Part shown: positions 2,444 to 26,136 of the stretch, piece by piece | Numbering within the stretch: position 1 is the stretch's first letter | Layout: the number at the start of each line of letters is the position of its first letter | Assembly: GCA_029866125.1 (NCBI GenBank) | Contig: JARWZZ010000015.1 | Location: 186,001-250,000, forward strand | Direction: 5' to 3' | From: Limnobacter sp. | GTDB taxonomy: Bacteria; Pseudomonadota; Gammaproteobacteria; Burkholderiales; Burkholderiaceae_B | DNA: 64,000 nt | Translations under genes and position numbers: made by a program | The notes under the pieces: generated by a model | What the model saw: only the letters and a program-made list of their open reading frames with translations | Told to the model about the DNA's origin: nothing | The model's database searches: none

Positions 2444-2631
2444 GAATGCTGTTCCCTTAAGTCTGCTGTGGTCTTGTGCCATAGATTTGTACGTAAGGTT
2501 TTACCGACAAAAACTCAGAATGGATTCAAGGCTAGAGCCACTTTGCTCAACATTTTGACAATGATTTGATTGCGCTCTGTCGAATCAGACTGGCTGAAAC
2601 TTAGAGAAAATTCAATCACAAGAAAGAAAAC

Positions 2632-2662
2632 AAAAAAGCCGACCTAAAAGGTCGGCTTTTTT
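2632..2662 (-). terminator. Rho-independent terminator, bidirectional form
   Basis: A seven-base perfect stem (GCCGACC at 2638-2644 paired with GGTCGGC at 2650-2656) encloses a five-base loop. It is flanked by six A on the left and six T on the right, so it can act in either direction. It lies just after the stop of the 1184-residue surface protein gene and before the next minus-strand gene, and would separate the two transcripts. Confidence 0.9.
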
Positions 2663-2723
2663 GAATTAAACATGACACCGAGATCAAGGGCTTCTTATGA
2701 AAACCCTTGAGGTGCCAAGTTAA

Positions 2724-5700
2724 TTAGGAGAAGTTAGCCTGAATCAAGTTTGCAACAGCTGTGTCTGCAAAGTCGATAGAACCAACCAAAGTTACGTTTG
2801 CGAAATCAGCGCTTGTGGCAACTGAGTCAGCACTGAAGATCTTCGTTTCGTTAGCACCAGAAACAACCATGAATACCACCTTCTCTACCGCAGCGTTAGC
2901 GTTGGCACCGAAGTTAGCCTGGTTCGCGCCTGTATTCAATGCTGTTGTCAAAGAAGCGGCATTCAAAGATGCGAAAGTTACACCTGCAGCAACACCCAAG
3001 TCAGCAAAGTTAATTGCGGCAATGGTATTTACACCGATTGCTGCTTTACCAGCTGCTGCATTCAGGTAAGTTGTTGCTACTGAAGCAGCAGGAGTACCGG
3101 CTGTGTTAGTCAGGTATGCCCTGAAGTCCAACACGTCAGCACCGGCTACTGCGCCAGCTGCGAAGTTAACGATTGTGTCGCTGTCGAATGAGCCAGAGAA
3201 CACGATACGCTCGTTGCTGTCGTCCAGTGTTGTAGTTGCATCTGCGCCAGCTGTAGTACCCAAAACAACTACATCGTTACCAGAACCTACAGTAATAACG
3301 TTGTCGCTTGTGGATGTGCTTACTGCACCTACGATTTGTGCGTTAGCTCCAGCACCTCCGTTTCCGTTTGCTCCGGTTTCCGCAAACTGATCCAGGTAGT
3401 CAGCAGCAAAGTCGCTGGCTGCCAAGTTTGCATTCAACTGAGCAACCAAAGCTGCTACGTCTGCCAGGTTTGTACCAAATGCAGCGTTGTATGCAGTGAC
3501 GTCGCCTGTGCTGAATGCACCAGAAGCCACTGTCGGAACAGTTGCACCAATCGTCAGCTCATCCAGCGTACGTACGCCGTCGATCAGTGAAGAAATGATC
3601 AGGGTACCTGTAGGACCATCTTCAGCAACCAACAACTTGCTCAAAACAGCGTCTGTATTGATCGCATTTTTGATCGCTTGGTTAATTTGCAGGTCATTGG
3701 TAACAAAGTTGGTATCAGCAACCACAACTGACTTCTCGATGCCTTTGAATGACAAGTTGATGTTCAAACTCTTCACTCGAATGCTGTCAGTTGTATCAGA
3801 GCGTAAGTCAGCAAGATTACGAACGTCGTTTCCAGCAGCAGCTAATACATATGTTGTCGCAGCGTCAATACCTACGGCACGTTGGTCGGCCGTATTGAGA
3901 ACATATACACCCTTAGTCACTGCAACCCTGTTTTCAACAGTATCTGGAGTACCCAAACCACCTGTGTTGTTGTTGCTTCGAGCCACGTAGTCAACTGTGC
4001 CGGTGTTATCCGTATACGCTGTGTCGTTACCAGTACCCAAGTTGATGTTGGCGTCGCCAGCACCAGGAGTACGGATTGTGTCGTTGCCGTCACCGCCGTT
4101 GATGGTGATGTTGTTGTTCAACTTCTGGTTGTTGTACCAGTTGGCTGCGCTACCTTGCTGGCCATTAACGATGCTGACGGAGATGTTGTCATCGCCACCA
4201 TTGCCGTTCAATGTGAAGTTGAAATCTTCACGACCACCATTCAGGTTGCTACGGCTGCTGGCTGCGCCAGAATCCAAAACAACTGTCATTGAGTCGTTAT
4301 TTGAGCCACCAGAGTAAACGAATGCCACGTTGTCAGCTGCAGGTGCTGCCAAATCTTTGTTATTCAAGTACTTGGCGATTGATGCTGCAGTTACTTCAGC
4401 ATCAAACTCAAAACGGCCAGTCATTGCTGTAGCGTCGATCAGACGTACATCAGAGAAACCAAACTGGTTGTGCTGATCAGTTGTGCCTGGCAATGTGTTG
4501 TTTTTCGCATCATTAACCGCACGGAAACCTGGAATAGCTGGGCTACCAAAGGCCACTGCATCGTTACCCAGCACGGACAAGTTACCCTGGTCTTTCACTG
4601 TTGTACCGAATGCGAAACTCTGGCTTGTTGTCAAACCGTTACGCACAGTCACTTCTTGCAAAGTGTTGTTTGTAGAGTTGATTGTTTGCAGCTTGCTGTT
4701 GTCGCGCACTTCGATTTCGAAACGCTCAACACCCTTGGATGTGGATGTATCACCCACTGACAAACCACCAATTACCAAGTCACCACCAGTAGAACCGCGA
4801 CCCACGTCGTCCAGAATCACTTTGGCAGTTACTTTGTCTGTTGATGTTGTTGTTGCAACAAACGCGTTTGTGTGCAAGCCAGAGCTTGAAGGCACAACAC
4901 CAGCAGCTGTAAAGCCGGTTGTAGCATCTGTAGAAATTACACCACCGTTCGTGCTTGTCAATACGATTTCGGTACCAGTTTGGTCAGCACCCAAAGTATC
5001 CTTAACGGTAAATGCACCGCCCAAAGCCACTGTAAAGCCAGTCAATGCTGGGTTAGCGGCTACTGCAGCAGCGATGGCTGTTTGCAGTTCAGCATAAGTT
5101 TGAGCAGCGTCGATTGCTGGTGATGTTACGGTCTGAATAACACCATTCAGCTTGAACGTGAAGCCGTTGTATGGGCTGTCTTTCAATGGGCCTGTGCCAG
5201 CAGCGTTACTACGAGTGTCCATCAACTGGATACGCAATGTGCTGCTTGTGTTAGACACTGTGCGCAGTGACAGTTGATCGAAGTACAAACCGAAGTCTAC
5301 GTCACCCGGATCTGTTTCAACCATTGCAACAGTGATGTCACGTGTAATCTGGTTTGGCAGAATACGTACGTCTTCAATCACCAAATCAGCGCGGCTGTTG
5401 TTTGATTCCCACTGAGTAACGCCAGACATACGCTGTGCATCAATCTGGACAATGTTTGTGCTCAGGTTGTTGTTGTTTGTATCAACAGCAATCGCTTGTG
5501 CACGGAAAGCTGCAGTTTCTACGCCAGTTGTTTCGCCAGTGATAGCAAAACGCTGTGAGTTACCTACGTCAGCATTCAGACGGTCGTTACCTGCACCACC
5601 GTTAACCACGTCACCAGACTGGAATGTGTTTGTGTTATCAACAATGCGTGATGTGATTGTGTCATCACCGGCACCACCGATCACATTGTCTGCACCCACT

Positions 5701-6278
5701 GTCAAGCTGATTGCCTGGCCAGTTGATGTAGTTGCAGCGTCAACAATTGATGCTACGCTTGCAGTGGCTTGAGCAGGTGTTGCTGCTGTTGCTGTAACAC
5801 CGGCCAAGAAACCACGTGCTGTTGCAGCAGCGCTGTTGCCTGAGTAGGCCAAAATTTCTGGAGTTGTATCGATTGCAGCAGTGAACAGCTTGGCAGAAGC
5901 CAACTTGTTTGCAACTGTAGTTGCGTCTGTACCTGTAGCGCCGTCCAAAATGGCTTGAGCAACGTTAACCAGTGTGAATGGCTTGCCGTTCAATGTGCCG
6001 TTGTTCAGGGCTTGTGTGTAAAAGTTCAGGCCAGCTGGATCAGCTTGGCGGCCCAACACTTGTTGGAAAATGTTGTTAACGCGTGATTCTGTAGAACCAG
6101 CACCAAACAAGGATGCTGCTTCGGCTGATGAGCCGAATGCTGTCAAAACTTCTTCAATGCGGCCACCGGCTGCATCAATTTTGCCAGCCCAGAAGTCCAA
6201 ACCGTTGGGGTCAGCAGGGCGACCATAATATGCGATATAAATCTTTTGTACTGCGTCGAAGAAATCAGCCTTAGCCAT
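2724..6278 (-). CDS. S-layer-like DUF4214/RTX protein, 1184 aa
   Basis: The protein opens with DUF4214 repeats (IAYYGRPADPNGLDFW near residue 14; VLGRQADPAGLNFY near 74). It then carries scattered glycine-aspartate RTX motifs, such as VIGGAGDDTI near residue 200 and NGGDGNDTI and LGTGNDTAY near 725-755. The C-terminal part includes DSDTIVNF and a short hydrophobic end (LIQANFS), resembling Caulobacter-type S-layer proteins exported by type I systems. No cysteine and no signal peptide are seen. The start has a good AGGAG ribosome site. It has its own CRP-box promoter, a leader hairpin and a strong terminator, so it appears monocistronic and highly expressed. The type I secretion genes at 22797-27841 are the likely exporter. 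S-layer identity is inferred; a large RTX adhesin is the alternative. Confidence 0.85.
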   Translation of the reverse strand: MAKADFFDAVQKIYIAYYGRPADPNGLDFWAGKIDAAGGRIEEVLTAFGSSAEAASLFGAGSTESRVNNIFQQVLGRQADPAGLNFYTQALNNGTLNGKPFTLVNVAQAILDGATGTDATTVANKLASAKLFTAAIDTTPEILAYSGNSAAATARGFLAGVTATAATPAQATASVASIVDAATTSTGQAISLTVGADNVIGGAGDDTITSRIVDNTNTFQSGDVVNGGAGNDRLNADVGNSQRFAITGETTGVETAAFRAQAIAVDTNNNNLSTNIVQIDAQRMSGVTQWESNNSRADLVIEDVRILPNQITRDITVAMVETDPGDVDFGLYFDQLSLRTVSNTSSTLRIQLMDTRSNAAGTGPLKDSPYNGFTFKLNGVIQTVTSPAIDAAQTYAELQTAIAAAVAANPALTGFTVALGGAFTVKDTLGADQTGTEIVLTSTNGGVISTDATTGFTAAGVVPSSSGLHTNAFVATTTSTDKVTAKVILDDVGRGSTGGDLVIGGLSVGDTSTSKGVERFEIEVRDNSKLQTINSTNNTLQEVTVRNGLTTSQSFAFGTTVKDQGNLSVLGNDAVAFGSPAIPGFRAVNDAKNNTLPGTTDQHNQFGFSDVRLIDATAMTGRFEFDAEVTAASIAKYLNNKDLAAPAADNVAFVYSGGSNNDSMTVVLDSGAASSRSNLNGGREDFNFTLNGNGGDDNISVSIVNGQQGSAANWYNNQKLNNNITINGGDGNDTIRTPGAGDANINLGTGNDTAYTDNTGTVDYVARSNNNTGGLGTPDTVENRVAVTKGVYVLNTADQRAVGIDAATTYVLAAAGNDVRNLADLRSDTTDSIRVKSLNINLSFKGIEKSVVVADTNFVTNDLQINQAIKNAINTDAVLSKLLVAEDGPTGTLIISSLIDGVRTLDELTIGATVPTVASGAFSTGDVTAYNAAFGTNLADVAALVAQLNANLAASDFAADYLDQFAETGANGNGGAGANAQIVGAVSTSTSDNVITVGSGNDVVVLGTTAGADATTTLDDSNERIVFSGSFDSDTIVNFAAGAVAGADVLDFRAYLTNTAGTPAASVATTYLNAAAGKAAIGVNTIAAINFADLGVAAGVTFASLNAASLTTALNTGANQANFGANANAAVEKVVFMVVSGANETKIFSADSVATSADFANVTLVGSIDFADTAVANLIQANFS

Positions 6279-6331
6279 TATTAAAACTCCTGTTTATTGA
6301 TAAATAGGTGCTTTCTGCCTGCAACCAAGAA

Positions 6332-6348
6332 TTGTCTAAAAAAGACAA
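6332..6348 (-). other. 5' leader hairpin of the S-layer-like gene
   Basis: TTGTCT (6332-6337) and AGACAA (6343-6348) form a six-base perfect inverted repeat with a five-A loop on the plus strand. It lies inside the predicted untranslated leader of the gene at 2724-6278, about 55 bases before the start codon. Leader stem-loops often protect abundant S-layer mRNAs from decay; that role here is inferred. Confidence 0.45.
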
Positions 6349-6377
6349 CACTCCGCATGCTACTTACACTGGAACAC

Positions 6378-6420
6378 AGTTTATGCAGTCATTGACCGAG
6401 AGGGTGTGACGTGGATCACA
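6378..6420 (-). promoter_or_regulatory. CRP-type box and class II-like promoter for S-layer-like gene
   Basis: TGTGACGTGGATCACA at 6405-6420 matches the CRP consensus TGTGA-N6-TCACA in all ten conserved bases. Reading leftward, a -10-like hexamer TAAACT sits at 6383-6378. If that hexamer is used, transcription would begin near 6371 and the box would be centred at about -41.5, the exact class II activator position. No good -35 element is seen, as expected for an activator-dependent promoter. The leader would be about 93 bases. The CRP-family protein encoded at 21994-22674 is the obvious candidate regulator, although another CRP elsewhere in the genome is possible. Confidence 0.75.
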
Positions 6421-6496: not shown

Positions 6497-7846
6497 CTAA
6501 GGCTTTGATAAATCTAGCCTATGGTTGTAAATTAGCTCCAAGCGCGAAGCTTCTGTAGAAAAAATCTTTAAATTTGAATCACTTACGCGATTCTCAAAAA
6601 GTAGACTATAAAGTCCTTTTGTTGTTTTTTTGAGAACGTACTCGGCTTTTACAGTTTGAATTGCCTGATTTCTTTGGGTATTTCCAAACAAAGCGGGTGA
6701 ATATTCTTGCTGATCCCTCACCCATTCAGACTTGGCCGCAAACAACAACTTGGGGCTCATTTGCCAGCCCAAACCCAGCTTGGCTCGTAATTGATCGCCA
6801 CCCGCACGCTGGTTTTGTGCCATGTCGGTTGCCAAACCCGCCTCGATCTGTAGGTTGCCCAATCCTCTTTGGGGGTACCAAAACCAATCACCCCCCAATC
6901 TTATGGACTCAAACTCCCCCTCACGACGCAACAAGCTTGTTGATAGGGTGGCTTGCTGACCATGCCAACCCAGTGTGTAGCGGTGATTGATAAATTCGTA
7001 ATCGCCACTGCGGGTCTGCCCCACCCCGGCCAGCAGCAGCTGACTGCAGGTACCAGCAAGCTCACAAGACCCGCCCCCCAAGGTTCTTCCAACATAAAGT
7101 AAAGAATCGTGATCCGACAACTGATCAATTGATTTGTTATAGCGGGTAAATTGGGAGCCTAACAGCCAGTTAGACTGCGGATTGGACTTTCTATTGGGGT
7201 CTACACCAGAACTGACTCCGCCTGCGGGCAGCACTACATCTAGCCGGAATCCTTCAAAACTGCTGGCCTGCGGCAAACTGCTTGGAGATAACTGCAATAT
7301 TTGATCGATACCCCCAATGCTAAGCAGAACCTCACGCGCGCTGGACCCAGAATTGACATTGGTGTCATAACCGGCATTGATACCCAGTTGCATAAAAGCA
7401 GGGAGGTCGTAGTTGACAGGCTTTACCGTAAGTTGGGCTGCGGAACTCGCCTCCATTTGAGATTCACCATAAAACCCTGAACCCTTGCTACTTTTTGCAA
7501 TCCATCCATCGACTAGGGCTAATATCCCCTCGGGTGGGTTTTTCTGAACCAGTTGCTTGCGCAACAACAAGGCCTCAGCGGTTCGTCCCAACTCGAGATT
7601 AATCTGAATCAACTCCATCAGTAAATCGCCCCGCTCTGGCAGGCAGCTTTGCAAACGCGCCAAGGGCTCCAACATGCCTTCAATTTTACCTGCAGACCGG
7701 GCGGACACATATTCCACCTGGTATTGGTCAAGGTTGAGACCAAGACAAGGCAATGCTCCATCAGCACTTGGCTTAGAGGAGTCAATCGCGGCAGATGCAA
7801 ACGACCACGACAGCATGCAGCATAGAAAGCTGATAATTCGGATCAT
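6497..7846 (-). CDS. TPR-linked outer membrane beta-barrel protein
   Basis: The protein has 449 residues and a Sec signal peptide (hydrophobic stretch ending SFASAA). Residues about 30-120 form a helical TPR-like region (LGRTAEALLLRKQL). After a linker comes a region beginning LGINAGYDTNVNSGSS, the usual first strands of the barrels found after TPR domains in DUF560/Slam-like proteins. The remainder alternates polar and aromatic residues as in an outer membrane barrel. Its ATG overlaps the stop of the upstream cyclase gene by four bases, so the two are translationally coupled. It is the last gene of the FecR-cyclase-barrel operon. The substrate or ligand is unknown; an outer membrane sensor or pore role is inferred. 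Confidence 0.7.
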   Translation of the reverse strand: MIRIISFLCCMLSWSFASAAIDSSKPSADGALPCLGLNLDQYQVEYVSARSAGKIEGMLEPLARLQSCLPERGDLLMELIQINLELGRTAEALLLRKQLVQKNPPEGILALVDGWIAKSSKGSGFYGESQMEASSAAQLTVKPVNYDLPAFMQLGINAGYDTNVNSGSSAREVLLSIGGIDQILQLSPSSLPQASSFEGFRLDVVLPAGGVSSGVDPNRKSNPQSNWLLGSQFTRYNKSIDQLSDHDSLLYVGRTLGGGSCELAGTCSQLLLAGVGQTRSGDYEFINHRYTLGWHGQQATLSTSLLRREGEFESIRLGGDWFWYPQRGLGNLQIEAGLATDMAQNQRAGGDQLRAKLGLGWQMSPKLLFAAKSEWVRDQQEYSPALFGNTQRNQAIQTVKAEYVLKKTTKGLYSLLFENRVSDSNLKIFSTEASRLELIYNHRLDLSKP

Positions 7847-9741
7847 TTCAACTCATACCCATAGGCAGGGTGACGTGAACCTTTGGTCAGGACATTGAAC
7901 TGGGAGCAGTCCAATTTTTGTGCAGACACACTTCGGCGGAAGGTTTCTTCCCCAATAATGATGTTGTAGGGCCCAGTACGAGTACCTTCTTCAAAATAGC
8001 TGGCCAAATTGACTGCCGCGCCAATCACGGAATAGTCATAGCGAAAGTCTGAGCCCATGTCACCGACTACAGCTTCTCCGGTGTTAACCCCCACTCCAAT
8101 TTTAAATCCTGGTAAAACCCCTTCTGCAGACAAGCGCTCAATTGCCTTGTACATGGACACTGCCGCACAAAAAGCACGCTCCGCATGCTCTTCCTGATTC
8201 AGAGGCGCCCCCCAAAACGCCATGATGCTGTCACCCATGTATTTGTCTACAGTCCCTTCGTTTTCAAGAACGATCCGAGTTAATTCATTCATCAATAACC
8301 TTGTTACCCGAGCCAGCTCTTGTGCAGATACAGTTTCGGAGAATCTCGTATAACCTCGCACATCAGCAAACAAAACCGACATTTCGCAACGCTGATGCTC
8401 ATTCACCACGGTTCCGTCCAATTCACTTTGCAAGCGCAGCAGTACCTGCGGCGCCACATAAGAACCAAATCGCTGAATCAGCGCAATCCGTTTTCGCTTT
8501 TCAACCAATGGACGCAATGAAAGCATAAAAACGCCGTATATCACCCACATTCCAAAAGTAGCTGCAAATGGCCAATATTCCCGGTCTAAACGCGCCTGTG
8601 AAACAAAGAATACCCATGCAACTAGCACTACAAAAGCGGACGCCACTCCCACAGACAGCCGGTCTGCACAAAATCCAAGCCAAATCAGCAACATCACTAC
8701 AAAACCTAGGAAGAGATCATACCTACGCCCTTGCGGCACAGTTTTATCCAAGCGCCCCTCCAGCAAAGCACTCAGTTGGTTGCGGTGTACTTCAACTGCA
8801 GGGTAGGTGGGAGAAAACGGGGAGGCGATTTGATCGTACAAGCCAGTGGCGGTGGAACCTACGATGACGATGCGCCCTTTAAGCTTTTTCTTTGGCAATT
8901 TTCCAAGGAGAACATCAGAAGCCGAGACGTACATATCCGCTGTGGCATAACCAGTCCAAGATATCCAAGAGTAGCCATCACGATCCACCTGGCCAACAGG
9001 CAATGGATTTTCCTGCCCTAAAAACCACTCCCCTTGGCTTAAATGGTAGTCGGGTTCTATGTTCAGCAGCATTCGGTATAAACCCAAAGCCAAAGACTCA
9101 ATGCATGCCCCAGTGGGGTCACACACAATCGGCGCGATTTTTCGAACCAATCCATCAGGTGAAACTTGGGGTGAAATGTGTGCAACCGTTCCCTTACCGG
9201 CTAACAACGGGGGAGACAGCCATGCGGAGGCAACTGGAACTGAAACAGATGAATCCGTTTGGACATGCAAACGATTGGCTAATGTGGCGAAATCACCCTT
9301 TCGCTCAGTGCCGTCAGATGACCAAACCAAGGCATTCAGGACACGGGGGTCGCTTAGTACGTCTTGAAGTAACACTTCACCTTGCGACGGCGCACCCTCG
9401 GGATCAATAAATAAGATGTCTGAACCGATCAACGAGACTTGATATTCATTCAACAAGGTGCGAAACAGCCTCGCCACCTCAGCCCTTGGCCATGGCCAAC
9501 GACCAAACTCGGACATGCTGGGTTCATCAATATCCACCACCAGAATACGATCATCTTCAATCGATGTTCGGTCCAATACAACCGACGTGAGCTTGTCATG
9601 TAGCCAAATTTCAGGTGGAAGTAAGGTGACCGTGTGGGAGGTGCCGCTGTAAGCGACCACACCCAGATAGATAGCCATCGGCGCGATCAACCAAACCCAA
9701 TTGCGCCTTAATGCGCGCAGAAATTTGGAAGAGAGGGACAA
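7843..9741 (-). CDS. CHASE2-domain class III adenylate/guanylate cyclase
   Basis: The protein has 632 residues: an N-terminal membrane helix (about 14-32), a periplasmic CHASE2 sensor (about 45-320), three membrane helices (about 340-420) and a class III cyclase domain (about 445-620). The metal-binding aspartates are present (D460 in FADVRG, D504 in DKYMGDS). K500 and D569 are the pair that favours ATP over GTP. N578 is also present, but the position four residues later, normally the transition-state arginine (NLASR), is tyrosine (Y582). This may lower or abolish activity. The gene lies 14 bases after the FecR gene and overlaps the barrel gene by four, so the three form one operon. A product of cAMP would link it to the CRP-type regulator at 21994-22674. 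Confidence 0.88.
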   Translation of the reverse strand: MSLSSKFLRALRRNWVWLIAPMAIYLGVVAYSGTSHTVTLLPPEIWLHDKLTSVVLDRTSIEDDRILVVDIDEPSMSEFGRWPWPRAEVARLFRTLLNEYQVSLIGSDILFIDPEGAPSQGEVLLQDVLSDPRVLNALVWSSDGTERKGDFATLANRLHVQTDSSVSVPVASAWLSPPLLAGKGTVAHISPQVSPDGLVRKIAPIVCDPTGACIESLALGLYRMLLNIEPDYHLSQGEWFLGQENPLPVGQVDRDGYSWISWTGYATADMYVSASDVLLGKLPKKKLKGRIVIVGSTATGLYDQIASPFSPTYPAVEVHRNQLSALLEGRLDKTVPQGRRYDLFLGFVVMLLIWLGFCADRLSVGVASAFVVLVAWVFFVSQARLDREYWPFAATFGMWVIYGVFMLSLRPLVEKRKRIALIQRFGSYVAPQVLLRLQSELDGTVVNEHQRCEMSVLFADVRGYTRFSETVSAQELARVTRLLMNELTRIVLENEGTVDKYMGDSIMAFWGAPLNQEEHAERAFCAAVSMYKAIERLSAEGVLPGFKIGVGVNTGEAVVGDMGSDFRYDYSVIGAAVNLASYFEEGTRTGPYNIIIGEETFRRSVSAQKLDCSQFNVLTKGSRHPAYGYELK

Positions 9742-9755
9742 AAGTCAGCTCGCGG

Positions 9756-12089
9756 TTACCGCGCCCAGTGAGTGATGCCAGTTAAAGCTTCTTGTGGGCC
9801 TAACTGTTTTTCAAACAACAAAGAAGCCCCTTTGGCTTGGTCGGTTAACACGCCTTGTAGCTGAGCATTTGATAATTCTGGACGCCCTGACAACAAGCCT
9901 TGAGAAGTCACGTCACCCGCTCCGCGCACGTTATTCAAAGCAACGCCTGGTGCAGCCACGTCAAAGGTGGTAGAAAACTTCTGCTTATCAAAGTCAATTT
10001 GAAGAAACGAATTACTGATTTCAGCTGGCCTCAAGGTTTCAGCGTTCGAATACACAGCCTCGTAATCGCGCAGCGCAAACTCAAACCGACCTGTTTGCGG
10101 CAGAGTCACATTGACAGGCTGTTGCAGAACGAAACGGCTATTGGCCAAAACACCGGCTTGAGCATCCAAGAGCCGCGCCACATCTTCGGCTTTGATGGAT
10201 GCAAAATTCTGCCACCGCCCCCAAGTCACTCCATTGGGGCTTTGCAGTAACTGCGCAGAGGGCTGGAATGTATCCAAGCTACCTTGGGCATTTTCAACCA
10301 AACCCAACATCCATTGCTTGCCGGTCAGATTTTGACTCACCATCAGCAGCAGAGTGTTGTCATTTCGAATTCCCCTGACTTGGAATTGCTCGTCTCTGGC
10401 CAGGAAGGTACCGTCGGCAGAGCTAGCACCAATCAACTCGAATTGTTTGCCAAGCAAATTGTATGTGAGTTTAAATGCATCACCATTGCGAACCACTGCA
10501 GTAAATTCAACGCTGGATAACCGTTGAATCGCTGTTTCAACTTCCAGAGGCTGCAGATTCTGACTAAATTCAATGCTGTAAGCCTTGGCTTGAGTGCTGT
10601 CTTTCTGGGCTTGAATATTAGGGGTGTAAGCGATCCCTTGGTCTTTAAGCGCCAAGCTATACAAAGAAACAGAGCTTGAGGCAACTCGACTCAACCATCC
10701 AAACGCATCGTCAGACAACTGTGAGGCTTGGTTTGGAAGTACATTCCAAATTGTGCCTGCCTCGGGCAGTGTTCTGACTGCAAGCAAGGTGTCTAGGGTA
10801 TTCTTCTGCCCCCAAAGTTGCTGATGGCGAGGATCGACCCACATGCTAACTGAAGCCCCGCGCCCCGATAAGGCAGAGTAATAGCCGATATTGCCGAACT
10901 CACCCACCTTGAAAGAAGATAGACTATTGGCTACATCTTTGAGGGCACTTCGGATTTGAACTTCAGAGACAGGACTGGACGCCCCATCAAACCAGTACTG
11001 GGTTGCCGATACTCGGGGATTTGCATCCAATGCATCACGAATGCCATCTCGGTCTGTATCCATCAACCAAGGATTGGTGCCAGTATTCAGTTCGACAAAA
11101 TCAGCAATGCCATCACTGTCAGTGTCCCCAAGCACCGGATCCAACAACAAACCACGCTTGATGGCAACCTGCTCTTCTTCGGTTAGGTCATTAGACAGCC
11201 CCAGATTAGGCAGCCCTTTTGTGTTCAACTCAATTAGATCGTTAGATGTGGGGCTGGTCAGGCCATCTCCGATGTGAGCACGATAAACACTGCGACTGTA
11301 GGGCTGTATTTCGCGCCCCTCTTTGTCATATACCTTGCCCTCGGTAAATGTACTGGAGCTTTCAGTACCCACCAAGGCAAAACGTGCTTGCTCAATTTGG
11401 GCAAAATATTGGGATTCGATTTCTACAGGCAATAACTCCTTGGGCACAGACCGACTCAATTCGGCAGAGCGTTTGCCTTTGGTCAACGCCAATATGGAGT
11501 CTTTGCTCGCAGCAAGCGCTTTTGTCAAGTCGCCTCGGCACTCACCCAACGAAGCCGCAACACATCCAATGGCGGAATTGAAGGGAGCCAGAGCCACTTC
11601 CCCCTTGAGCACGTAAACGAGTTGTTTGCGACTATCGACAGAGGTGACAAAATCAGTTCCGCGAATACCTAGTGCGGAAAATGGAGTGTTAACCCTGAAC
11701 TTGGATTTATCTTTTTGCCCAACCTCACCGGTCGAACTGCGAATTGCACCTTTTTCTAAGGTAATCCGGATAGCCCCGGCCCCATCCATTGAGCGTGCTT
11801 TGTATTCGTCAATTCTAGCATTGGTATTTTTACGCAATGAAAGCAAGCCACCATCGTTCATGCGAACGATCAACTCACCTGCGCCGGTTTGTAGCTCGTC
11901 TCCTTCAAGTACGGAATCACCGCGCCCCAAGTAGGTCTTGTTTCCTGCTGTAACCTTCCATACTTCACCGGTGGCCAACACCACCTCGCCAGCACTGGCC
12001 TGAGCAGCATGGCTTAAGGCCACACCAGAGCAGGCCAACACGATGGCGGACAATAATCGTAGCATTACAAATGCACCCGTATTCAACAT
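9756..12089 (-). CDS. FecR-domain periplasmic protein with calcium-type repeats
   Basis: The protein has 777 residues and an N-terminal signal sequence (hydrophobic core LLSAIVLACSGVAL). The FecR domain covers about residues 35-165 (GDELQTGAGELIVRMNDGG, VNTPFSALGIRGTDF). Near residues 320-355 are two thrombospondin-3-like aspartate repeats (DTDSDGIADF, DTDRDGIRDA) that usually bind calcium. The remaining half has no recognised domain. AAGG lies six bases before the ATG at 12089; an internal ATG at 12065 is the alternative start. It is the first gene of the operon with the CHASE2 cyclase and the barrel protein. FecR proteins of this non-sigma type often accompany CHASE2 cyclases, suggesting a shared envelope-sensing module. 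Confidence 0.82.
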   Translation of the reverse strand: MLNTGAFVMLRLLSAIVLACSGVALSHAAQASAGEVVLATGEVWKVTAGNKTYLGRGDSVLEGDELQTGAGELIVRMNDGGLLSLRKNTNARIDEYKARSMDGAGAIRITLEKGAIRSSTGEVGQKDKSKFRVNTPFSALGIRGTDFVTSVDSRKQLVYVLKGEVALAPFNSAIGCVAASLGECRGDLTKALAASKDSILALTKGKRSAELSRSVPKELLPVEIESQYFAQIEQARFALVGTESSSTFTEGKVYDKEGREIQPYSRSVYRAHIGDGLTSPTSNDLIELNTKGLPNLGLSNDLTEEEQVAIKRGLLLDPVLGDTDSDGIADFVELNTGTNPWLMDTDRDGIRDALDANPRVSATQYWFDGASSPVSEVQIRSALKDVANSLSSFKVGEFGNIGYYSALSGRGASVSMWVDPRHQQLWGQKNTLDTLLAVRTLPEAGTIWNVLPNQASQLSDDAFGWLSRVASSSVSLYSLALKDQGIAYTPNIQAQKDSTQAKAYSIEFSQNLQPLEVETAIQRLSSVEFTAVVRNGDAFKLTYNLLGKQFELIGASSADGTFLARDEQFQVRGIRNDNTLLLMVSQNLTGKQWMLGLVENAQGSLDTFQPSAQLLQSPNGVTWGRWQNFASIKAEDVARLLDAQAGVLANSRFVLQQPVNVTLPQTGRFEFALRDYEAVYSNAETLRPAEISNSFLQIDFDKQKFSTTFDVAAPGVALNNVRGAGDVTSQGLLSGRPELSNAQLQGVLTDQAKGASLLFEKQLGPQEALTGITHWAR

Positions 12090-15749: not shown

Positions 15750-17183
15750 TTACTTTCGGGCAATTAGAGCAAAGTCTTGGGGTCCACAAAGATGGCCGTT
15801 GACCCTTTCTGTCAATGGATCAATGCCCGGAACCTTGGCTTCGGCAGGATAAGGGTTGAGCCTTAAAATCTCAGATTCACCAAACCCATAATATTGGGCC
15901 ATAAAACTAAGCAAGGTGGGCGTTAGGGGATTTCGATGGGTTGGGTCGTGATAGAAAGTGTGTGTAGCGACCAATAGGTTTTCAGGGTTGGGGGTTTCCA
16001 AAATGAGCTTACCACCCGGCTCAAGAACGCGTTGAGCCTCTTGAAACAAACTCAAAAGCAAATCGAGAGATATGTGCTCAGCCACATGAAACCCTGTCAC
16101 CGCGGCCAAGCAATTATCGGGCAAAGCCTTTAAATACTGGATCACATCGGCCTGCTCTGCATCTAGCCCCTTGCCTCTGCAGATTTGAACCATGACTTGA
16201 TTGATGTCTAAACCCTTGCCTTCGAAGTGCCCTGACTTGAGTACATCCAGCCATTCACCTCTGCCACAACCCACGTCGATCACTCTTTTGCTTCCGCAAG
16301 AAGGGATCAAAGGGAGATACAGCCGCAGCCGTTCATAAATTTCCGCTTGCGTACCTCGACAAGCTTCTTCAAATGCAAAGTAAAAACGATCTACAGACTC
16401 AGCGGACATGTAAGCTGAGGCGTGATGATTTACCTCATGTTCCACACGGGAGAAACCGGGAACATTCGAGACGGATCTTTTTTCTTCAGATAAATATCGA
16501 ACTTGAGACCTGAGAGTTTCAATTCGCCCCTCTAGTACCTTGATGTCCTGAAACCTGCATTGCTCTTCTTGTTCCAACTTACGGATAAGCAAGTTGTGAT
16601 TTTTAACCGCTGTCTGGATGGCTTTTTGTAGTTTTATTAGAAACAGATTGAAATTTACAGACTGGGAGGCAAACCAAAGCAAACCGCTCTGCCGCTGAAT
16701 CAAATCCAACATTTTCTCAGACTTTTTCCACACGAGCCCTAGGCTAGGGAGCCTGCTTTCCAACTTCTTCAGCCATGAATAACCCCTTAAACCCTTTATA
16801 TTGGCTCTATTCAACCGCCCTTCTTGTGAACGGACAAGTTCCAATAAAATAGCTTGGCGGGTCTCGCCATTCCTAATTTTGGCGAGATAATTACTCAAAC
16901 CACCGGTATCCGCCACGCGTCCCAAAGCAATTTGGTAAGCATTCCTTACAAAAGTAATATCATCCAAAAATAAAAAATCTTTGGCATGATAGCTGGATTG
17001 GACAGGCAACTGCGTAAGCTTCAAGGTATCAAGACTAGGCCAATCCACTGGCTGCAAGTCGACCTGAATCTCGCGTACATCCCGGGTATATCGAGCCTGC
17101 TCCGTTTCTAGATGCACCGCCTCTTGTTTAACTGTGCGGATAATCTGTTCGAGATCCATATTTTTTATTTGACTTTCACTCAT
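15750..17183 (-). CDS. DUF4214/coiled-coil/SAM methyltransferase, WbdD-like capping candidate
   Basis: The protein has 477 residues. Residues about 70-130 form a DUF4214 domain (YQIALGRVADTGGLSNYL), the same domain found at the start of the two large surface proteins. A helical, charge-rich coiled-coil region follows (about 165-240). Residues about 270-470 are a class I SAM methyltransferase with the glycine loop IDVGCGRGEWLDVL and the acidic GLDINQ. It lies directly downstream of wzt. In E. coli O9a the terminator WbdD joins a methyltransferase to a coiled-coil ruler and the cap is read by the Wzt C-terminal domain. A similar capping role is inferred, but no kinase domain is present and the coiled coil is on the other side of the enzyme. 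Confidence 0.82.
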   Translation of the reverse strand: MSESQIKNMDLEQIIRTVKQEAVHLETEQARYTRDVREIQVDLQPVDWPSLDTLKLTQLPVQSSYHAKDFLFLDDITFVRNAYQIALGRVADTGGLSNYLAKIRNGETRQAILLELVRSQEGRLNRANIKGLRGYSWLKKLESRLPSLGLVWKKSEKMLDLIQRQSGLLWFASQSVNFNLFLIKLQKAIQTAVKNHNLLIRKLEQEEQCRFQDIKVLEGRIETLRSQVRYLSEEKRSVSNVPGFSRVEHEVNHHASAYMSAESVDRFYFAFEEACRGTQAEIYERLRLYLPLIPSCGSKRVIDVGCGRGEWLDVLKSGHFEGKGLDINQVMVQICRGKGLDAEQADVIQYLKALPDNCLAAVTGFHVAEHISLDLLLSLFQEAQRVLEPGGKLILETPNPENLLVATHTFYHDPTHRNPLTPTLLSFMAQYYGFGESEILRLNPYPAEAKVPGIDPLTERVNGHLCGPQDFALIARK

Positions 17184-17232: not shown

Positions 17233-18423
17233 TTAGCCAACAATTTGGGTGTCTAGAAACACAACGCCTGAAAACAAAGGCACATGACTTCCCGCGACTT
17301 CGAAACCAATCAAATTGTCGCACCAATGATAGCAATCATGCATATGGTGCTCATCGCTGTGAACTGCGAAAGTAATCGTATATTTCCCTGGCGCCAAATT
17401 CATTGGCAATAGGAAACCAACACTTTTTGTCTCTCCTTCATCAATGTTCATCGCTGCTTTGAGATGCAGGGTGTTGGTACCAAAGATGTCTTGTCCAAAT
17501 CGATCACGAATCATAAAACCCACCGTAGGGGGGGGTACCTGCTTTTTGCAATGTAGCTGCACTCGCAGCGTACAAATTTCGCCAGAAGAGACAGTAGAGG
17601 ATTCAGAGGCTCGTCCAAGTAAAGTGGCTGATTGGATAGTAATCTCGCCTGAGCCATAACTACGGTTGAGCATTGCTTCATGAGATAGGCGGTATTCGTC
17701 TGCATCCATATCGGCCATTATTTTGTTGTAATGGTTAACGGCCGCTTCAGGATCCCCGTCACATACAATCCGACCACCATCCAGCACGAGGGCCCGATCG
17801 CAAATCATTTTTACGGCATTCAAGTCATGTGAAACAAACACGATTGACCCTCCAGCCTCCCTGAATTCTCGAATCCTTTTCATACACTTTTGCTGAAAAT
17901 GTCCATCGCCTACGGACAAAGCCTCATCCACCACAAAGCAAGTGGGGTCTGCATGAATGGCAATAGCAAAGGCCAAGCGCATGACCATGCCGGACGAATA
18001 GGTGCGAATGGGCTCTGCAATGTAGCGACCAAGCTCGGAGAATTCAATAATTTCCTGCTTTCTGGCCTCGATTTCTTCCATGGTCATGCCCAACAACAGC
18101 GCATTGCCCACAATATTTTGTAAACCTGTCAAATTCCTGTCGAAACCAGTGCCCAACTCGAGCAAACCGGTTAAACGGCCACTTGTTTTCACCTCGCCAG
18201 AGTCAGGCAGCATCACGCCAGTTAAAATCTTAAGAAGAGTGGACTTGCCCGCACCATTTTTACCGAGTACGCCCAGCGTTTCCCCTTCTCTGACTTGAAA
18301 ACTTAGCTGTTTCAAAGCGAGGTGGGAGCGATGGAAACTTCGCCGAAAAATCATTTCCTTCAATCGATCAGAAGGACGATCATACAGCTTGAAAGATTTG
18401 GATAAATTATTGACTTCAATCAT
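17233..18423 (-). CDS. wzt: O-antigen/polysaccharide ABC exporter, ATP-binding subunit Wzt
   Basis: The protein has 396 residues. The ATPase domain (about 1-235) has Walker A (GKNGAGKST), a signature region (YSSGMVMRLAFAIA) and Walker B ending CFVVDEALSVGD. Residues about 255-396 form the extra C-terminal beta-sandwich of substrate-reading Wzt proteins (CTLRVQLHCKK, GFMIRDRFGQDIFGTNT). Such domains bind the modified non-reducing end of the polymer before export. The neighbouring methyltransferase and Wzm permease fit this. It acts at the inner membrane, moving undecaprenyl-linked polysaccharide to the periplasm. Confidence 0.92.
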   Translation of the reverse strand: MIEVNNLSKSFKLYDRPSDRLKEMIFRRSFHRSHLALKQLSFQVREGETLGVLGKNGAGKSTLLKILTGVMLPDSGEVKTSGRLTGLLELGTGFDRNLTGLQNIVGNALLLGMTMEEIEARKQEIIEFSELGRYIAEPIRTYSSGMVMRLAFAIAIHADPTCFVVDEALSVGDGHFQQKCMKRIREFREAGGSIVFVSHDLNAVKMICDRALVLDGGRIVCDGDPEAAVNHYNKIMADMDADEYRLSHEAMLNRSYGSGEITIQSATLLGRASESSTVSSGEICTLRVQLHCKKQVPPPTVGFMIRDRFGQDIFGTNTLHLKAAMNIDEGETKSVGFLLPMNLAPGKYTITFAVHSDEHHMHDCYHWCDNLIGFEVAGSHVPLFSGVVFLDTQIVG

Positions 18424-18429
18424 CGGAAA

Positions 18430-19206
18430 TTAAACAAAATCTCGAATATCACGCTCAAGCTTTTTAAGCAGAAAAGAGCCAAACCCGAAGATTAATAAAG
18501 ACAATCCAAGCATTTTAAGGAGAATTGAAAAATCAGGAGTTTGATGCCCAATCACAATATCCCGGTAAGCTTGGGCGAAATGATAGTAAGGGTTGACTGC
18601 CATAAATTCCATGTATTCCGACGGAAGAATGGTAACAACATAGACAACAGGTGTGAGCCAAAACCAGAACTGAACCAGCACGGGCATCATTTCACGAATG
18701 TCCTCTACAAAAACACTCAAAACAGCAAGAACAAGCCCAATAGAAAATGCCAATATTTGCTGAATCAGAAACACACAGGGAATAAATAACCAATGAACAT
18801 CTAATGGAAATCCAATCAGCAATAAAAAGCCAATAAAGAAAATCATTGAAACAAAAAATACAAAACTTTCTGAGAGAACGATATAAACAGGAAGAATAAG
18901 CAAGGACAACTGAACCTTTCCAATCAATCCCGCTTTATCTCTGTACACAGTTGTCACTCGAAGTAAAGTAGAGGAAAAAGCAGCCCAAGGCACTATTCCA
19001 CAGATCAAATAAATACTATATCCATACTCTTCGAAGCCTGCACCGACACTACCAAGGCGTGCACCCATGATTTTCGAGAAAATCAGGGTAAACATAAGTA
19101 TATTAGTGAGTGGAATGATGAAAGCCCACAATCCACCCAATACAGATCCTGTGTATTTGTCTTTCAGGTCCTGCTTAGAGAAATTAAGAATCAGTGAAAG
19201 AATCAC
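18430..19206 (-). CDS. wzm: O-antigen/polysaccharide ABC exporter, permease Wzm
   Basis: The protein has 258 residues and six membrane helices typical of the ABC-2 permease family (YTGSVLGGLWAFIIPLTNI near the N-terminus; QFWFWLTPVVYV late). It starts with GTG, and that start overlaps the TGA of the upstream glycosyltransferase as GTGA, so the two are probably translationally coupled. The wzt gene follows after six bases. It pairs with Wzt to move finished polysaccharide across the inner membrane. Confidence 0.92.
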   Translation of the reverse strand: MILSLILNFSKQDLKDKYTGSVLGGLWAFIIPLTNILMFTLIFSKIMGARLGSVGAGFEEYGYSIYLICGIVPWAAFSSTLLRVTTVYRDKAGLIGKVQLSLLILPVYIVLSESFVFFVSMIFFIGFLLLIGFPLDVHWLFIPCVFLIQQILAFSIGLVLAVLSVFVEDIREMMPVLVQFWFWLTPVVYVVTILPSEYMEFMAVNPYYHFAQAYRDIVIGHQTPDFSILLKMLGLSLLIFGFGSFLLKKLERDIRDFV

Positions 19207-21993: not shown

Positions 21994-22674
21994 CTAGTTG
22001 ATGGTGGCCATTTCCTTAAATTTGCTATACGGGGAGATTCTTAATGAATCGCTAATCTTTTCGAAATAACCTTGGCGAATAAGCGTCGCCATGGATCTCG
22101 AGACTGTTTCCCGAGAGGCATTGACCATGATGGCGATTTCTTTCTGACTCGGAAGTGTAGGAATAATTGCAACGTCATCATCCATTGGCTTGGCCAACTC
22201 CAATAGCAAGGCGCAGACCCGCTGATGCGCGGCCTGATTATTCAGCATCGCGACTTGCTGGGATGTACGGCGAACCATCTGGGCCAGACGCGCCATGATT
22301 CTTAGGGACACAATAGGGTTTTCTAAAATCATGGTCATTGCTTCTTGCCGCGGCATAAACAAAACCTTACTGGGACGGATTGCCACAACAGACGCAGACC
22401 TCGCCTCACCATCAATGATTGACATTTCACCAAAATGAGAGCCGGTTTCGATAAAACTCAAACCAACCTCTCTACCGTCCGGAGACAAATCCACAACCTG
22501 CAGGGTGCCATCCTGAACGAAGGCCATAGAGTCAGCTTGCTCGCCCTTGCGAACAACTACTTCACCACGCCTGTACTCTTTGAGAGTGAAGAATTGGGAT
22601 ACCCGGACGAGGACCGCTTCGTCCACACCCTTCAGAAGCTCGATGTTCTTGAGGAGAAGGTAATTAACACCCAT
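21994..22674 (-). CDS. CRP/FNR-family transcription regulator
   Basis: The protein has 226 residues. The cyclic-nucleotide domain (about 12-130) has an intact phosphate-binding cassette (FGEMSIIDGEARSAS), in which the glutamate and the ARSA segment match cAMP-binding CRP proteins. No FNR-type cysteine cluster is seen. The helix-turn-helix (about 180-210: QKEIAIMVNASRETVSRSM) is of the CRP type, consistent with recognition of TGTGA-N6-TCACA. It is divergent from the type I secretion operon across 122 bases and co-oriented with a glycosyltransferase gene. A perfect CRP box is found before the S-layer-like gene at 2724-6278. cAMP as its ligand is inferred from the cassette. Confidence 0.9.
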   Translation of the reverse strand: MGVNYLLLKNIELLKGVDEAVLVRVSQFFTLKEYRRGEVVVRKGEQADSMAFVQDGTLQVVDLSPDGREVGLSFIETGSHFGEMSIIDGEARSASVVAIRPSKVLFMPRQEAMTMILENPIVSLRIMARLAQMVRRTSQQVAMLNNQAAHQRVCALLLELAKPMDDDVAIIPTLPSQKEIAIMVNASRETVSRSMATLIRQGYFEKISDSLRISPYSKFKEMATIN

Positions 22675-22796: not shown

Positions 22797-24587
22797 ATGA
22801 GGAAAGACTTGAATATTTTCAAAGACAAAAACGAACTAACAGAAGCACTGCAAGCGTGCAAATCTAGTTTTCGTAGTTTGGGCTTTTTCAGTGCCGCGAT
22901 CAACATTCTTGCATTGACACCATCAATTTATATGTTGCAGGTGTACGACAGAGTGTTAATGAGCCGGAATGAAGTCACTCTAACCATGATCACATTGATG
23001 ACTGTGGGCTTGCTGGCTTTGGCGGCTTTACTGGAAATGAGTCGCTCATTCGTGCTGGTTCGCGTGGGTAACAAGCTAGACCTCAAACTGAATGATCGAC
23101 TTTACACTGCATCGTTTGAAGCAAACTTGAGACAAGGTAATGGAAATGCTGGCCAAGCGCTTCGCGACTTAACCAATGTCCGTCAATTCCTTACTGGGAA
23201 CGGAATTTTAGCCTTTTTTGATACTCCGTGGATTCCTATCTACATGGCTGTAATTTTTCTGTTCCACCCCTTACTCGGGTTACTGGCAGTAGGCGGAGCG
23301 GTCATATCTATAGCATTAACCTACGCAAACAACCGTGGAACAGCCCGTCCCTTGGCAGATGCAAACCGTTTAGCAGTGCGAAGCGCGTCAGTTGCTGACA
23401 GCAGCTTAAAAAATGCTGAAGTGATTGAAGCCATGGGCATGTTAGGCTCTCTGCGCAAGCGCTGGATGAAAGATCACCACCAATTTCTTAGTTTTCAAGC
23501 GCAAGCATCGGACCAAGGAGCCATATGGTCTCACACCAGCAAATACTTCCGTATATTCTTGCAGAGCGCTGCATTGGGCCTAGGCGCGTTACTTGTAATT
23601 GAAAATCAAATTACCCCCGGCATGATGATCGCTTGTTCAATCTTGATGGGCAAGGCACTTCAACCCATTGACATGCTAACTGGCGTCTGGCGCAGCTTCA
23701 GTGGTACCAAAGTTGCTTACGAGCGTTTGGTTGCTACTCTTGATGCAAATCCTGTACGAAAACTCGGCATAGAATTACCCACTCCAGAAGGTCGGATAAA
23801 CTTTGAGGCCGTCTCGGCAGGCCCACCCGGAATTGAAACCGCAACCTTGATTAACATTAATATTCAAATACAACCCGGTCAGGCCCTCGGTGTAATTGGC
23901 CCCTCGGGAGCAGGTAAGAGTACATTTATGCGTTTGGTGGTTGGAGTATGGCGCGCCCAACAAGGAAAAGTGCGGATTGACGGCGCAGACATCAATCAAT
24001 ATGACAAAGAACTTCTGGGACCCCACATTGGGTATTTGCCGCAAACTATCGAACTCTTTGCTGGAACTGTGGCGGAAAACATCGCGCGATTCGGAGAAAT
24101 GGATTCAGATAAAGTAATCAATGCCGCAAAACTAGCCGGCGTTCATGAAATGGTCCTCCAACTACCGAAGGGCTATGACACGATGCTTGGAGATCAAGGA
24201 GCTGGTCTGTCTGGCGGTCAAAGACAAAGACTCGGTCTAGCCAGAGCTTTATATGGCAATCCGAAAATTGTGGTGCTTGATGAGCCTAATTCTAATTTAG
24301 ATGATGCGGGTGAAGCAGCTTTAATCGAGGCAATAAATCATCAGCGTAATTTAGGACACACAGTAATATTAGCTACTCACAAACCTTCCCTACTCACAGT
24401 TACAAATAATTTAATGTATCTGAATAGAGGTCAAATCGCTGCTGCTGGCCCAACTATGCAAGTATTGAAAAAACTGCAAGAAAGCTCGCAACAACAATCG
24501 GCTCAGGGTACAAATTCATCGGATAGAGCAGATATCACTAGCCCGGTCGCACGCTTGGCACAAGCAAGTGAGAAGACCGATAGTTAA
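22797..24587 (+). CDS. Type I secretion ABC transporter, PrtD-like
   Basis: The protein has 596 residues: an N-terminal ABC exporter membrane domain (about 30-310, with helices such as VTLTMITLMTVGLLALAALL) and an ATPase domain (about 330-560). Walker A is GPSGAGKST, the signature is LSGGQRQRLGLARAL and Walker B is IVVLDEPNSNLD. It lacks the N-terminal peptidase or CLD domain of HlyB types, so it belongs to the PrtD/RsaD/AprD group that exports RTX proteins and S-layer proteins with C-terminal signals. It is followed by the adaptor and TolC-like genes on the same strand. Likely cargo: the two RTX/DUF4214 proteins at 1-6278. Confidence 0.93.
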   Translation: MRKDLNIFKDKNELTEALQACKSSFRSLGFFSAAINILALTPSIYMLQVYDRVLMSRNEVTLTMITLMTVGLLALAALLEMSRSFVLVRVGNKLDLKLNDRLYTASFEANLRQGNGNAGQALRDLTNVRQFLTGNGILAFFDTPWIPIYMAVIFLFHPLLGLLAVGGAVISIALTYANNRGTARPLADANRLAVRSASVADSSLKNAEVIEAMGMLGSLRKRWMKDHHQFLSFQAQASDQGAIWSHTSKYFRIFLQSAALGLGALLVIENQITPGMMIACSILMGKALQPIDMLTGVWRSFSGTKVAYERLVATLDANPVRKLGIELPTPEGRINFEAVSAGPPGIETATLININIQIQPGQALGVIGPSGAGKSTFMRLVVGVWRAQQGKVRIDGADINQYDKELLGPHIGYLPQTIELFAGTVAENIARFGEMDSDKVINAAKLAGVHEMVLQLPKGYDTMLGDQGAGLSGGQRQRLGLARALYGNPKIVVLDEPNSNLDDAGEAALIEAINHQRNLGHTVILATHKPSLLTVTNNLMYLNRGQIAAAGPTMQVLKKLQESSQQQSAQGTNSSDRADITSPVARLAQASEKTDS

Positions 24588-24721
24588 CGATAAGCATGCG
24601 TGAATTAAAACTCACTTTCTGAAGTAATACTGGTTAATCCCATTTTTTGGGAAAGCTAAAAGCTCGCCGGACCTTTGCCCGCCCCTACTTTCTAATACCG
24701 TTGAAACAAGAAGATTGGATA

Positions 24722-26116
24722 ATGGATAAACCCGCAATAAGCAGATTAGATTCAAAAAAGAAACACCTCACTTTAGCTGACCAAGCAAATAGAGGAGTTC
24801 AGGAAGCAGAAAACGTCAAAGAACTAGCATTAGACACCGATGATGGTAAACAAAGTCGCTTAGGCTGGCTCTTCTTCGTTTTCGGTTTCTGTGGTTTTCT
24901 AGTATGGGCAGCGACAGCCCCTTTAGACCAAGGCTCAGTTGTGCCTGCAACACTTGTTGCCGAGGGTAACAGGAAAAGCATTCAGCATCTGACCGGCGGC
25001 ATAATTCAAAAGATTCACGTTAAGGAAGGGCAAAAAGTCAAGGCTGGAGAGCTTTTGGTTGAACTCAACCCAGTTCGCACGGAAGCAGAGGCAAGCGCAC
25101 TACGTGCAAGATGGATTAATTACTCTGCGATTAAAGCGAGGCTAGTCGCAGAGATGACAAACTCCAAGCAAATTGAGTTCCCCCAATGGTTCAATGAAAA
25201 TAAGGACGACCCTCGAGTCAGAGACGCAATCGGATTACAAAATCAGTTGTTTCAAAGTAAGGTGAATGCCCGCAGGGCTGAGTTGGCAGCACTCAGCGAG
25301 GGCGTCAAGGCGCAAGAAGCTGTTTTAAATGATCTTAGTAAAGGTAGTATAAATGTCAAAGAAAGCGTCCAGATCAAAGAAGCTCAGTTGAAAGCAATGA
25401 AAGAAATGGTCGAGGCTGGCTATCTCGCTAAGAATAGATATCTGGATGCTCAGCGAGAATTTAACTCTATTTCAAGTGCTTCCTCACAAGATTCGAGTCA
25501 GATTTCACAGGTCACGGGAAGATTGAACGAAGCACGTCAGCAGCTTGCCGCGCGACGTTCAGTGCACCTCTCAGAGGTTCAGTCAGAACTAACCAACTTA
25601 CAATCCCAGCTGTCTGAAGTTACAGAACAGCTGACTACTGCAACCTTCAATGAAGAAAATAATCAAGTTCGCAGTCCAGTGGATGGTTTTGTAGTAGGCA
25701 TGCGAATTTTTACTGAGGGCGGTGTGGTTGGTGGCGGTCAGCCGATGATGGATATTGCTCCTAGCAATGCGCGGATGGAACTGGCTGGACAACTAGAAAC
25801 GAATCAAGTTGACAAAGTCAAAGAAGGCATGAAGGTCACTGTAGCATTTTCATCCCTTAATCATGCGCACACTCCTGAATTAACAGGTGTCATCAAGACA
25901 ATAGCAGCGGACAGCATTGTTGACGAAAAGACAGGCATACCCCATTACCCCATCCGATTCTCGCTGGACGACTCTGAAATGGAAAAGCTCAACAAATATT
26001 CTATTCAACCAGGCATACCTGCTGAGGTGTTTATCAACGTGGGCGAGCGAACCATGCTTAACTATTTGTTCAAACCATTGATTGATAGAATGCGAACGTC
26101 AATGACCGAAGAGTAA
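24722..26116 (+). CDS. Type I secretion periplasmic adaptor, HlyD/PrtE family
   Basis: From the ATG at 24722 the protein has 464 residues; the frame stays open back to an ATG at 24647, which would add 25 residues. The later start is preferred because AAGAAG precedes it. One membrane helix lies near residues 40-60 (LFFVFGFCGFLVWAATAPLDQG), then a lipoyl half (GGIIQKIHVKEGQKVKAGELL), a long coiled coil (about 170-310), the second lipoyl half and a C-terminal beta domain (GIPAEVFINVGERT). It bridges the ABC exporter and the outer membrane channel. Confidence 0.92.
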   Translation: MDKPAISRLDSKKKHLTLADQANRGVQEAENVKELALDTDDGKQSRLGWLFFVFGFCGFLVWAATAPLDQGSVVPATLVAEGNRKSIQHLTGGIIQKIHVKEGQKVKAGELLVELNPVRTEAEASALRARWINYSAIKARLVAEMTNSKQIEFPQWFNENKDDPRVRDAIGLQNQLFQSKVNARRAELAALSEGVKAQEAVLNDLSKGSINVKESVQIKEAQLKAMKEMVEAGYLAKNRYLDAQREFNSISSASSQDSSQISQVTGRLNEARQQLAARRSVHLSEVQSELTNLQSQLSEVTEQLTTATFNEENNQVRSPVDGFVVGMRIFTEGGVVGGGQPMMDIAPSNARMELAGQLETNQVDKVKEGMKVTVAFSSLNHAHTPELTGVIKTIAADSIVDEKTGIPHYPIRFSLDDSEMEKLNKYSIQPGIPAEVFINVGERTMLNYLFKPLIDRMRTSMTEE

Positions 26117-26136
26117 GTCAGCAGAACTTCCAGCAG

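Follow-up and report, generated by a model that had tools for sequence, protein, structure and literature searches.

Judged by analogy with the parts of the sources available, the nearest described circuit to the one proposed here is Clr/CyaD1/NsrA of Sinorhizobium meliloti, in which clr, cyaD1, smc02177 (a FecR gene), and smc02178 are neighbors (PMC5498481, PMC13001267). As in the Clr circuit, so far as those excerpts describe it, the Limnobacter sp. locus studied here combines a CHASE2 cyclase, a CRP-family regulator, a FecR protein, and an outer-membrane barrel (PMC5498481, PMC13001267); this Clr-type gene set is complete in our sequence, the barrel being assigned from a low-confidence structural model. 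However, the Clr box is given in the available text as TGTTN8AACA or a relaxed form of it, whereas the site in Limnobacter is TGTGA-N6-TCACA. The targets differ as well, those of Clr being infection-control genes and polysaccharide, with no S-layer mentioned in the accessible portions of the two papers (PMC5498481, PMC13001267). On the side of the presumed product, the locus resembles those of Caulobacter RsaA and the methanotroph S-layers, which are described in the excerpts available as a large repeat protein with adjoining type I secretion genes (PMC11784148, PMC13274458). The accessible text of the first of these papers makes no mention of a cyclase, CRP, FecR, or promoter, and that of the second makes none of CRP, FecR, or promoter. 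The NpdA S-layer of Betaproteobacteria comes from related bacteria but is linked to type II secretion, and cyclase, CRP, FecR, and promoter go unmentioned in the part of that paper available (PMC10765051). The literature searched, which took in few subscription papers, contained no report connecting S-layer control with CRP or with CHASE2 cyclases. The new elements here are the S-layer target, the dedicated portable module, and a joint loss of cAMP residues in which the DNA code persists. The timing of S-layer building in Gram-negative bacteria is little known, and the S-layer is among the costliest products of a cell. With the sensor, second-messenger enzyme, regulator, and operators in one cluster, the question can be tested in one strain.

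The whole stretch of DNA analyzed, 64 kb in length, is referred to as the window, and the following features within it are used below.

2631 to 2663, minus strand: terminator-like hairpin of 15 pairs, after the S-layer-like gene
2724 to 6278, minus strand: 1184-aa S-layer-like protein with N-terminal DUF4214 and GGxGxD-type repeats
6278 to 6371, minus strand: predicted 5' UTR with a hairpin and an AGGAG ribosome site (fold, -23 kcal/mol)
6383 to 6378, minus strand: -10-like hexamer TAAACT, 21 nt after the box
6405 to 6420, no strand assigned: CRP-type box TGTGACGTGGATCACA, palindromic half-sites with 10 of 10 consensus bases
6497 to 7846, minus strand: 449-aa protein, probable outer-membrane barrel, with a helical N part and long strands
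7843 to 9741, minus strand: CHASE2 class III nucleotide cyclase, with D460, K500, D504, and N578 kept and Arg replaced by Tyr582
9756 to 12089, minus strand: 777-aa FecR-domain protein (PF04773, E 1.2e-11)
17233 to 18423, minus strand: Wzt-type polysaccharide export gene
18430 to 19206, minus strand: ABC2 membrane polysaccharide export gene
21994 to 22674, minus strand: 226-aa CRP-like regulator, cAMP residues intact, R-E-x-x-x-R helix present
22797 to 24587, plus strand: type I secretion ABC gene (TIGR01842, 742 bits against a cut-off of 510)
24647 to 26116, plus strand: HlyD-type secretion gene (PF13437 and PF02321 for the HlyD/TolC pair)
26225 to 27841, plus strand: TolC/OEP-type secretion gene (the other member of that pair)

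The box sits in an intergenic stretch of 218 bases that separates the 449-aa gene, ending at 6497, from the 1184-aa gene, starting at 6278, both on the minus strand, and the distance from box to ATG is 126 nt. Class II CRP-dependent promoters, of the E. coli galP1 type, have a box centered at about -41.5 and a weak -10 and do not need a -35. The TGTGA-N6-TCACA operator of such promoters is present in TGTGACGTGGATCACA, and its center lies 29.5 nt from the first base of TAAACT, which we take to be the class II distance, as for E. coli galP1. With transcription starting at 6371, a start that is predicted from the -10, the center falls at -41.5; we infer a start near that position. The 5' UTR from 6278 to 6371 folds with a z of -2.5, and a fold this good was reached by 2 of 200 shuffles. 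Its hairpins are stable and may perhaps protect the transcript.

The 226-aa regulator keeps E72, R82, S83, T127, and S128, as well as R180/E181/R185 (E. coli numbering), while R123 is Met. These are the residues of a cAMP-binding CRP-family protein, and binding of cAMP is predicted on that basis. The likeness to E. coli class II promoters thus covers the TGTGA-N6-TCACA box, its center near -41.5, and the identical R180/E181/R185. However, the protein scores 68.8 bits with the NCBIfam PRK11753 equivalog against a cut-off of 266, which places it outside the E. coli-type CRPs. Among the eight matches in the genome, it is the sole one with an R-E-x-x-x-R helix, the other family members including two with R-E-x-x-x-K, an FNR-like one with I-E-T-V-S-R, and one with R-Q-T-T-N-Q. 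A preliminary description of this DNA had pointed to TGTGACGTGGATCACA with all ten consensus bases, to TAAACT placing its center at -41.5, and to a CRP-family regulator with an intact cAMP cassette. The box is exact in sequence and coordinates, the geometry is equally exact for a predicted start at 6371, and all five cassette residues were found.

TGTGACGTGGATCACA is the sole perfect box within the 64-kb window, in which boxes with two mismatches or fewer are not in excess (27 found versus 36 expected). No box occurs upstream of the FecR operon, the CRP gene, or the secretion genes of the window. The genome of this organism (3.28 Mb) holds six perfect boxes versus four for the reversed pattern, and the 16 genomes of the genus hold 38 versus 34 for the control, without enrichment in either case. 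Long open reading frames (ORFs) contain four of the six, and the two intergenic ones are the TGTGACGTGGATCACA site and a site at L088 3979. The genome scan for the box, proposed earlier as a check on whether surface genes are enriched, gave no excess of boxes, and genome- or genus-wide counts of perfect boxes were dropped as proof of a regulon for lack of enrichment. Because of this result, the statistical argument was built on homologous promoters instead. No homolog of the 1184-aa protein occurs in any of 15 congeners, which indicates that the locus does not belong to the core of the genus.

Those same genome counts are what would favor reading TGTGACGTGGATCACA as a chance palindrome of no function, and it is at the promoters of homologous S-layer-like genes that this reading is contradicted. 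A scan of named genomes gave nine loci with homologs of the 1184-aa protein. These were from Giesbergeria anulus, Massilia atriviolacea, and Aquabacterium terrae and from metagenome-assembled genomes (MAGs) assigned to Azonexus, Zoogloea, Methylobacter, Methylococcaceae, Burkholderiaceae, and Burkholderiales. A box with at most one mismatch lies 97 to 185 nt before the chosen ATG in all nine, a count that includes the near-copies G060 and G064 and related sequences that are not independent, so that fewer loci are independent. The module CRP-like family, the FecR gene, and the CHASE2 cyclase adjoin the homologous promoters. The CRP/FecR/cyclase cluster shares the contig of the S-layer gene in seven of the nine loci and is on a different contig in the methanotroph genomes G061 and G063, the shared contigs being recognized by their matching lengths. 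When the nine loci were re-fetched (161,228 bases), they contained 17 boxes with no more than one mismatch and none outside module promoters: 7 before the S-layer gene, 9 before FecR, mostly between FecR and the divergent CRP-like gene, and 1 before the type I secretion ABC gene. In the ten genomes with S-layer homologs (G060 to G068 and G245; about 45 Mb), the module accounts for 8 of the 14 perfect boxes. In contrast to those of E. coli CRP, the module boxes are few and are gathered in one module, not spread genome-wide.

When 399 genomes of the order and 398 of the phylum were searched with a profile, 26 places beyond the window turned up, many of them remote matches covering the N terminus or the repeats only. 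Within 200 nt upstream, 7 have a perfect box, 1 has a box with one mismatch, and 18 have none with one mismatch or fewer. Module genes surround all seven perfect-box places, which were fetched partly for having boxes and are not counted as a blind test. Among the proteins encoded there are S-layer-like ones whose similarity is confined to the N-terminal part, which implies that the switch extends beyond a single protein family. One genome (G068) carries two module copies. The S-layer homologs in G019 and G484 and the four DUF4214 paralogs of the organism's own genome have no upstream box with at most one mismatch, and neither the G484 region nor the second G142 locus (L182) contains a module CRP, FecR, or cyclase. 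Given the conserved box, and the fixed spacing described below, the homologous promoters exclude chance on sequence grounds where the organism's own genome alone does not, and we consider a functionless palindrome extremely improbable.

The regulator itself provided a second way of finding loci. A profile built from 13 module regulators found 34 places in 31 of the 399 genomes with at least 194 bits, the rest scoring 159 bits or less, and 26 unseen loci were chosen by regulator score along with 8 controls from below this gap. The 26 loci (463,821 bases) contain 20 perfect boxes, compared with a mean of 0.375 and a largest value of 3 in 40 shuffles. The boxes are spread over 14 of the loci, and 19 of the 20 precede module genes: S-layer-like (6), secretion ABC (8), FecR/cyclase (2), and CRP (3). 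The eight control loci have no perfect box and four with one mismatch, against 2.6 expected. A perfect box was absent from 12 of the 26 regulator loci, and any box with one mismatch or fewer from 7 of the 26. The R-E-x-x-x-R helix is found in seven of the eight controls too and is therefore not by itself a predictor of the module. Of the 398 phylum genomes, 3 have a module regulator at E 1e-50, the organism's own included. The module with the closest sibling of the window regulator (G036, 52%) has no box with two mismatches or fewer, and the one perfect box of that genome falls inside an ORF. Relatives of Wzt and ABC2 adjoin the module CRP in many of the loci. The box is almost certainly used by the family of the 226-aa regulator to control the 1184-aa gene.

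The module is also found on a plasmid. A search of plasmid proteins with the S-layer protein gave 53 records, of which the best was examined, the 42,044-base pINp10 of Methyloprofundus sp. (L256, AP023241.1), located by S-layer homology alone. It encodes a CRP-family protein, FecR, a CHASE2 cyclase, a barrel-like protein, and a 1640-aa homolog, together with type I secretion, polysaccharide export, and replication genes, and is largely an S-layer module. Only two boxes with one mismatch or fewer are present, a perfect one 185 nt before the gene of the 1640-aa homolog and another between CRP and FecR. Read by eye, the plasmid CRP is without Arg82 and its cyclase without Asn. Tandem 21-base repeats at L256 20724 to 20865, before the secretion genes, are near-matches to the box with two mismatches and may be replication iterons.

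The position of the box relative to the -10 was analyzed with a -10-like hexamer defined by A at position 2, T at position 6, and at least four of six matches to TATAAT. Eighteen S-layer promoters were aligned by box, and dropping G064, a near-copy of G060, left 17. A hexamer is found 21 to 23 nt after the box in 14 of the 17, compared with a shuffle mean of 0.48, and none of 1,000 shuffles reached 14 promoters with a hexamer at any offset. For the promoters found later, 27 of the 37 regulator-locus boxes were used, the other 10 being set aside as second copies, as lacking a module gene, or as being of unclear direction. The spacing is present in 13 of these 27 (shuffle mean 1.6, largest 6), among them all seven S-layer-like promoters and five of the seven FecR promoters; it is rare at secretion-ABC boxes (1 of 10) and absent at CRP-side boxes (0 of 3). 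Based on this distribution over the S-layer-like, ABC, and CRP boxes, class II architecture is claimed for the S-layer promoters, and it is suggested more weakly for the FecR promoters.

We consider it very likely that the box activates the S-layer-like gene. CRP-family proteins are able to repress, and further family members are encoded in the genome, so the box could instead repress the gene or bind a different protein of the CRP/FNR family. That is improbable, because the constant spacing from the -10, seen in 14 of 17 and then 7 of 7 loci, puts the box where a class II activator binds and the other family members in the genome are without the R-E-x-x-x-R helix. A second intergenic perfect box, TGTGATCTAGATCACA (L088 3979 to 3994; G000:C2:348978-348993), lies between divergent ExbB/TolQ-like and NlpC/P60-like frames, named by eye, and a -10-like hexamer at 21 to 23 nt is absent on both of its sides.

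Less clear than the operator is the signal. The preliminary description placed a class III cyclase about 1.5 kb from the S-layer-like gene and drew a circuit from cyclase through cAMP and CRP to the surface layer. The position was right, the cyclase gene ending 1.56 kb away, but the transition-state Arg is replaced by Tyr582. Ser571 occupies the adenine Asp/Thr position, so that the full class III adenylate cyclase set of two metal Asp, Lys, Asp/Thr, Asn, and Arg is not present. The transcriptional part of the circuit stands, with box, spacing, and linkage all recurring, while the cAMP step is plausible and finds partial support. The window regulator is of a cAMP-competent type, and the window cyclase is doubtful. 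With all the cAMP residues of the regulator retained, cAMP is the most likely output. We judge it somewhat probable that cAMP is the ligand of the regulator in Limnobacter sp., and just short of an even chance that the neighboring CHASE2 cyclase is the source.

To compare regulators and cyclases, 30 pairs were scored for R82-S83 in the former and Lys-Asn in the latter. Both were kept in 15 pairs, both were lost in 12, and 3 were mixed, giving agreement in 27 of 30 (Fisher P 1.7e-5, uncorrected for kinship), which suggests that regulator and cyclase share one fate. Among 10 regulators whose fetched stretch contained no cyclase, 8 lack Arg82. The operator is kept in both residue states. A real operator might therefore answer to something other than cAMP from the neighboring cyclase, namely, cAMP from another cyclase, a different ligand, or a protein contact. 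Such a signal would fit with Tyr582 in the window cyclase and an Ala at the transition-state Arg position of the G036 cyclase, with the seven class III cyclase genes of this genome, the window one included, and with the roughly half of the modules that lack the cyclase Lys/Asn and the regulator Arg82 and yet keep the box. The intact E72, R82, S83, T127, and S128 of the window regulator point the other way, and the 27 of 30 agreement argues for coupling; on balance, we hold a signal of this kind to be somewhat doubtful. If residues of the cyclase and the cAMP pocket were indeed lost together while the DNA sites persisted, nature would have provided an experiment in the rewiring of a second-messenger switch.

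The 1184-aa protein has no cysteine in its translation. Its type I secretion genes (22797 to 27841) lie in the same cluster, 16.5 kb away, a linkage of the RsaA type. A secreted adhesin or matrix protein, in place of an S-layer, could be the product of an otherwise real switch, and the structural searches leave room for this. By sequence, no solved structure was found for the 1184-aa protein up to E 1, and its predicted model (mean pLDDT 55.7, low confidence) draws no Foldseek match that reaches E 0.001, RsaA appearing at rank 8 with E 0.55. Against an adhesin or matrix protein, the length, the repeats, and the nearby type I secretion and polysaccharide export genes resemble S-layer loci as described in the available part of PMC11784148, and we regard such a product as possible but rather doubtful. 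The best Foldseek rows, phage tail sheaths at E 0.006, were not taken as meaningful. The model of the 449-aa protein is likewise of low confidence (pLDDT 48.5), with helices followed by long strands, and its Foldseek matches are mainly outer-membrane barrels among those listed, including BcsC with TPR.

With an S-layer as the preferred product, the explanation as a whole, in which the box serves a dedicated S-layer switch as its operator, is very probably correct, and the circuit, a conserved CRP/FecR/CHASE2-cyclase/barrel module driving S-layer-like genes, is well supported. From the computed box, spacing, conservation, linkage, and residues, we infer binding, activation, a ligand, a direction of signaling, and a surface lattice. 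FecR, the CHASE2 cyclase, and the barrel-like protein, encoded upstream of the S-layer-like gene, would form a trans-envelope sensor whose output would reach the CRP-like protein, most likely as cAMP. A dimer of the 226-aa protein would bind the box centered near -41.5 and, as a class II activator, would activate the 1184-aa gene from the TAAACT promoter. The S-layer-like protein would then exit by the type I system encoded beside the regulator and coat the cell.

A broader proposal is that a portable envelope-sensing module controls S-layer synthesis and secretion through class II boxes across genomes (many Burkholderiales-like and some methanotroph) and one plasmid, and that in part of this range the cyclase catalytic residues and the phosphate-binding Arg of the regulator were lost together with the DNA code kept, turning a cAMP switch into an other-ligand or contact switch. 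This full proposal is slightly more doubtful than not.

Tandem DUF4214 paralogs (frames of 958, 985, and 419 aa) occur downstream of the S-layer-like gene, at window positions 1 to about 2600 and at G000:C2:178000-188500, with no box of one mismatch or fewer upstream. At window positions 15750 to 17183, a DUF4214 stretch is joined to a methyltransferase domain within a glycosyltransferase cluster.
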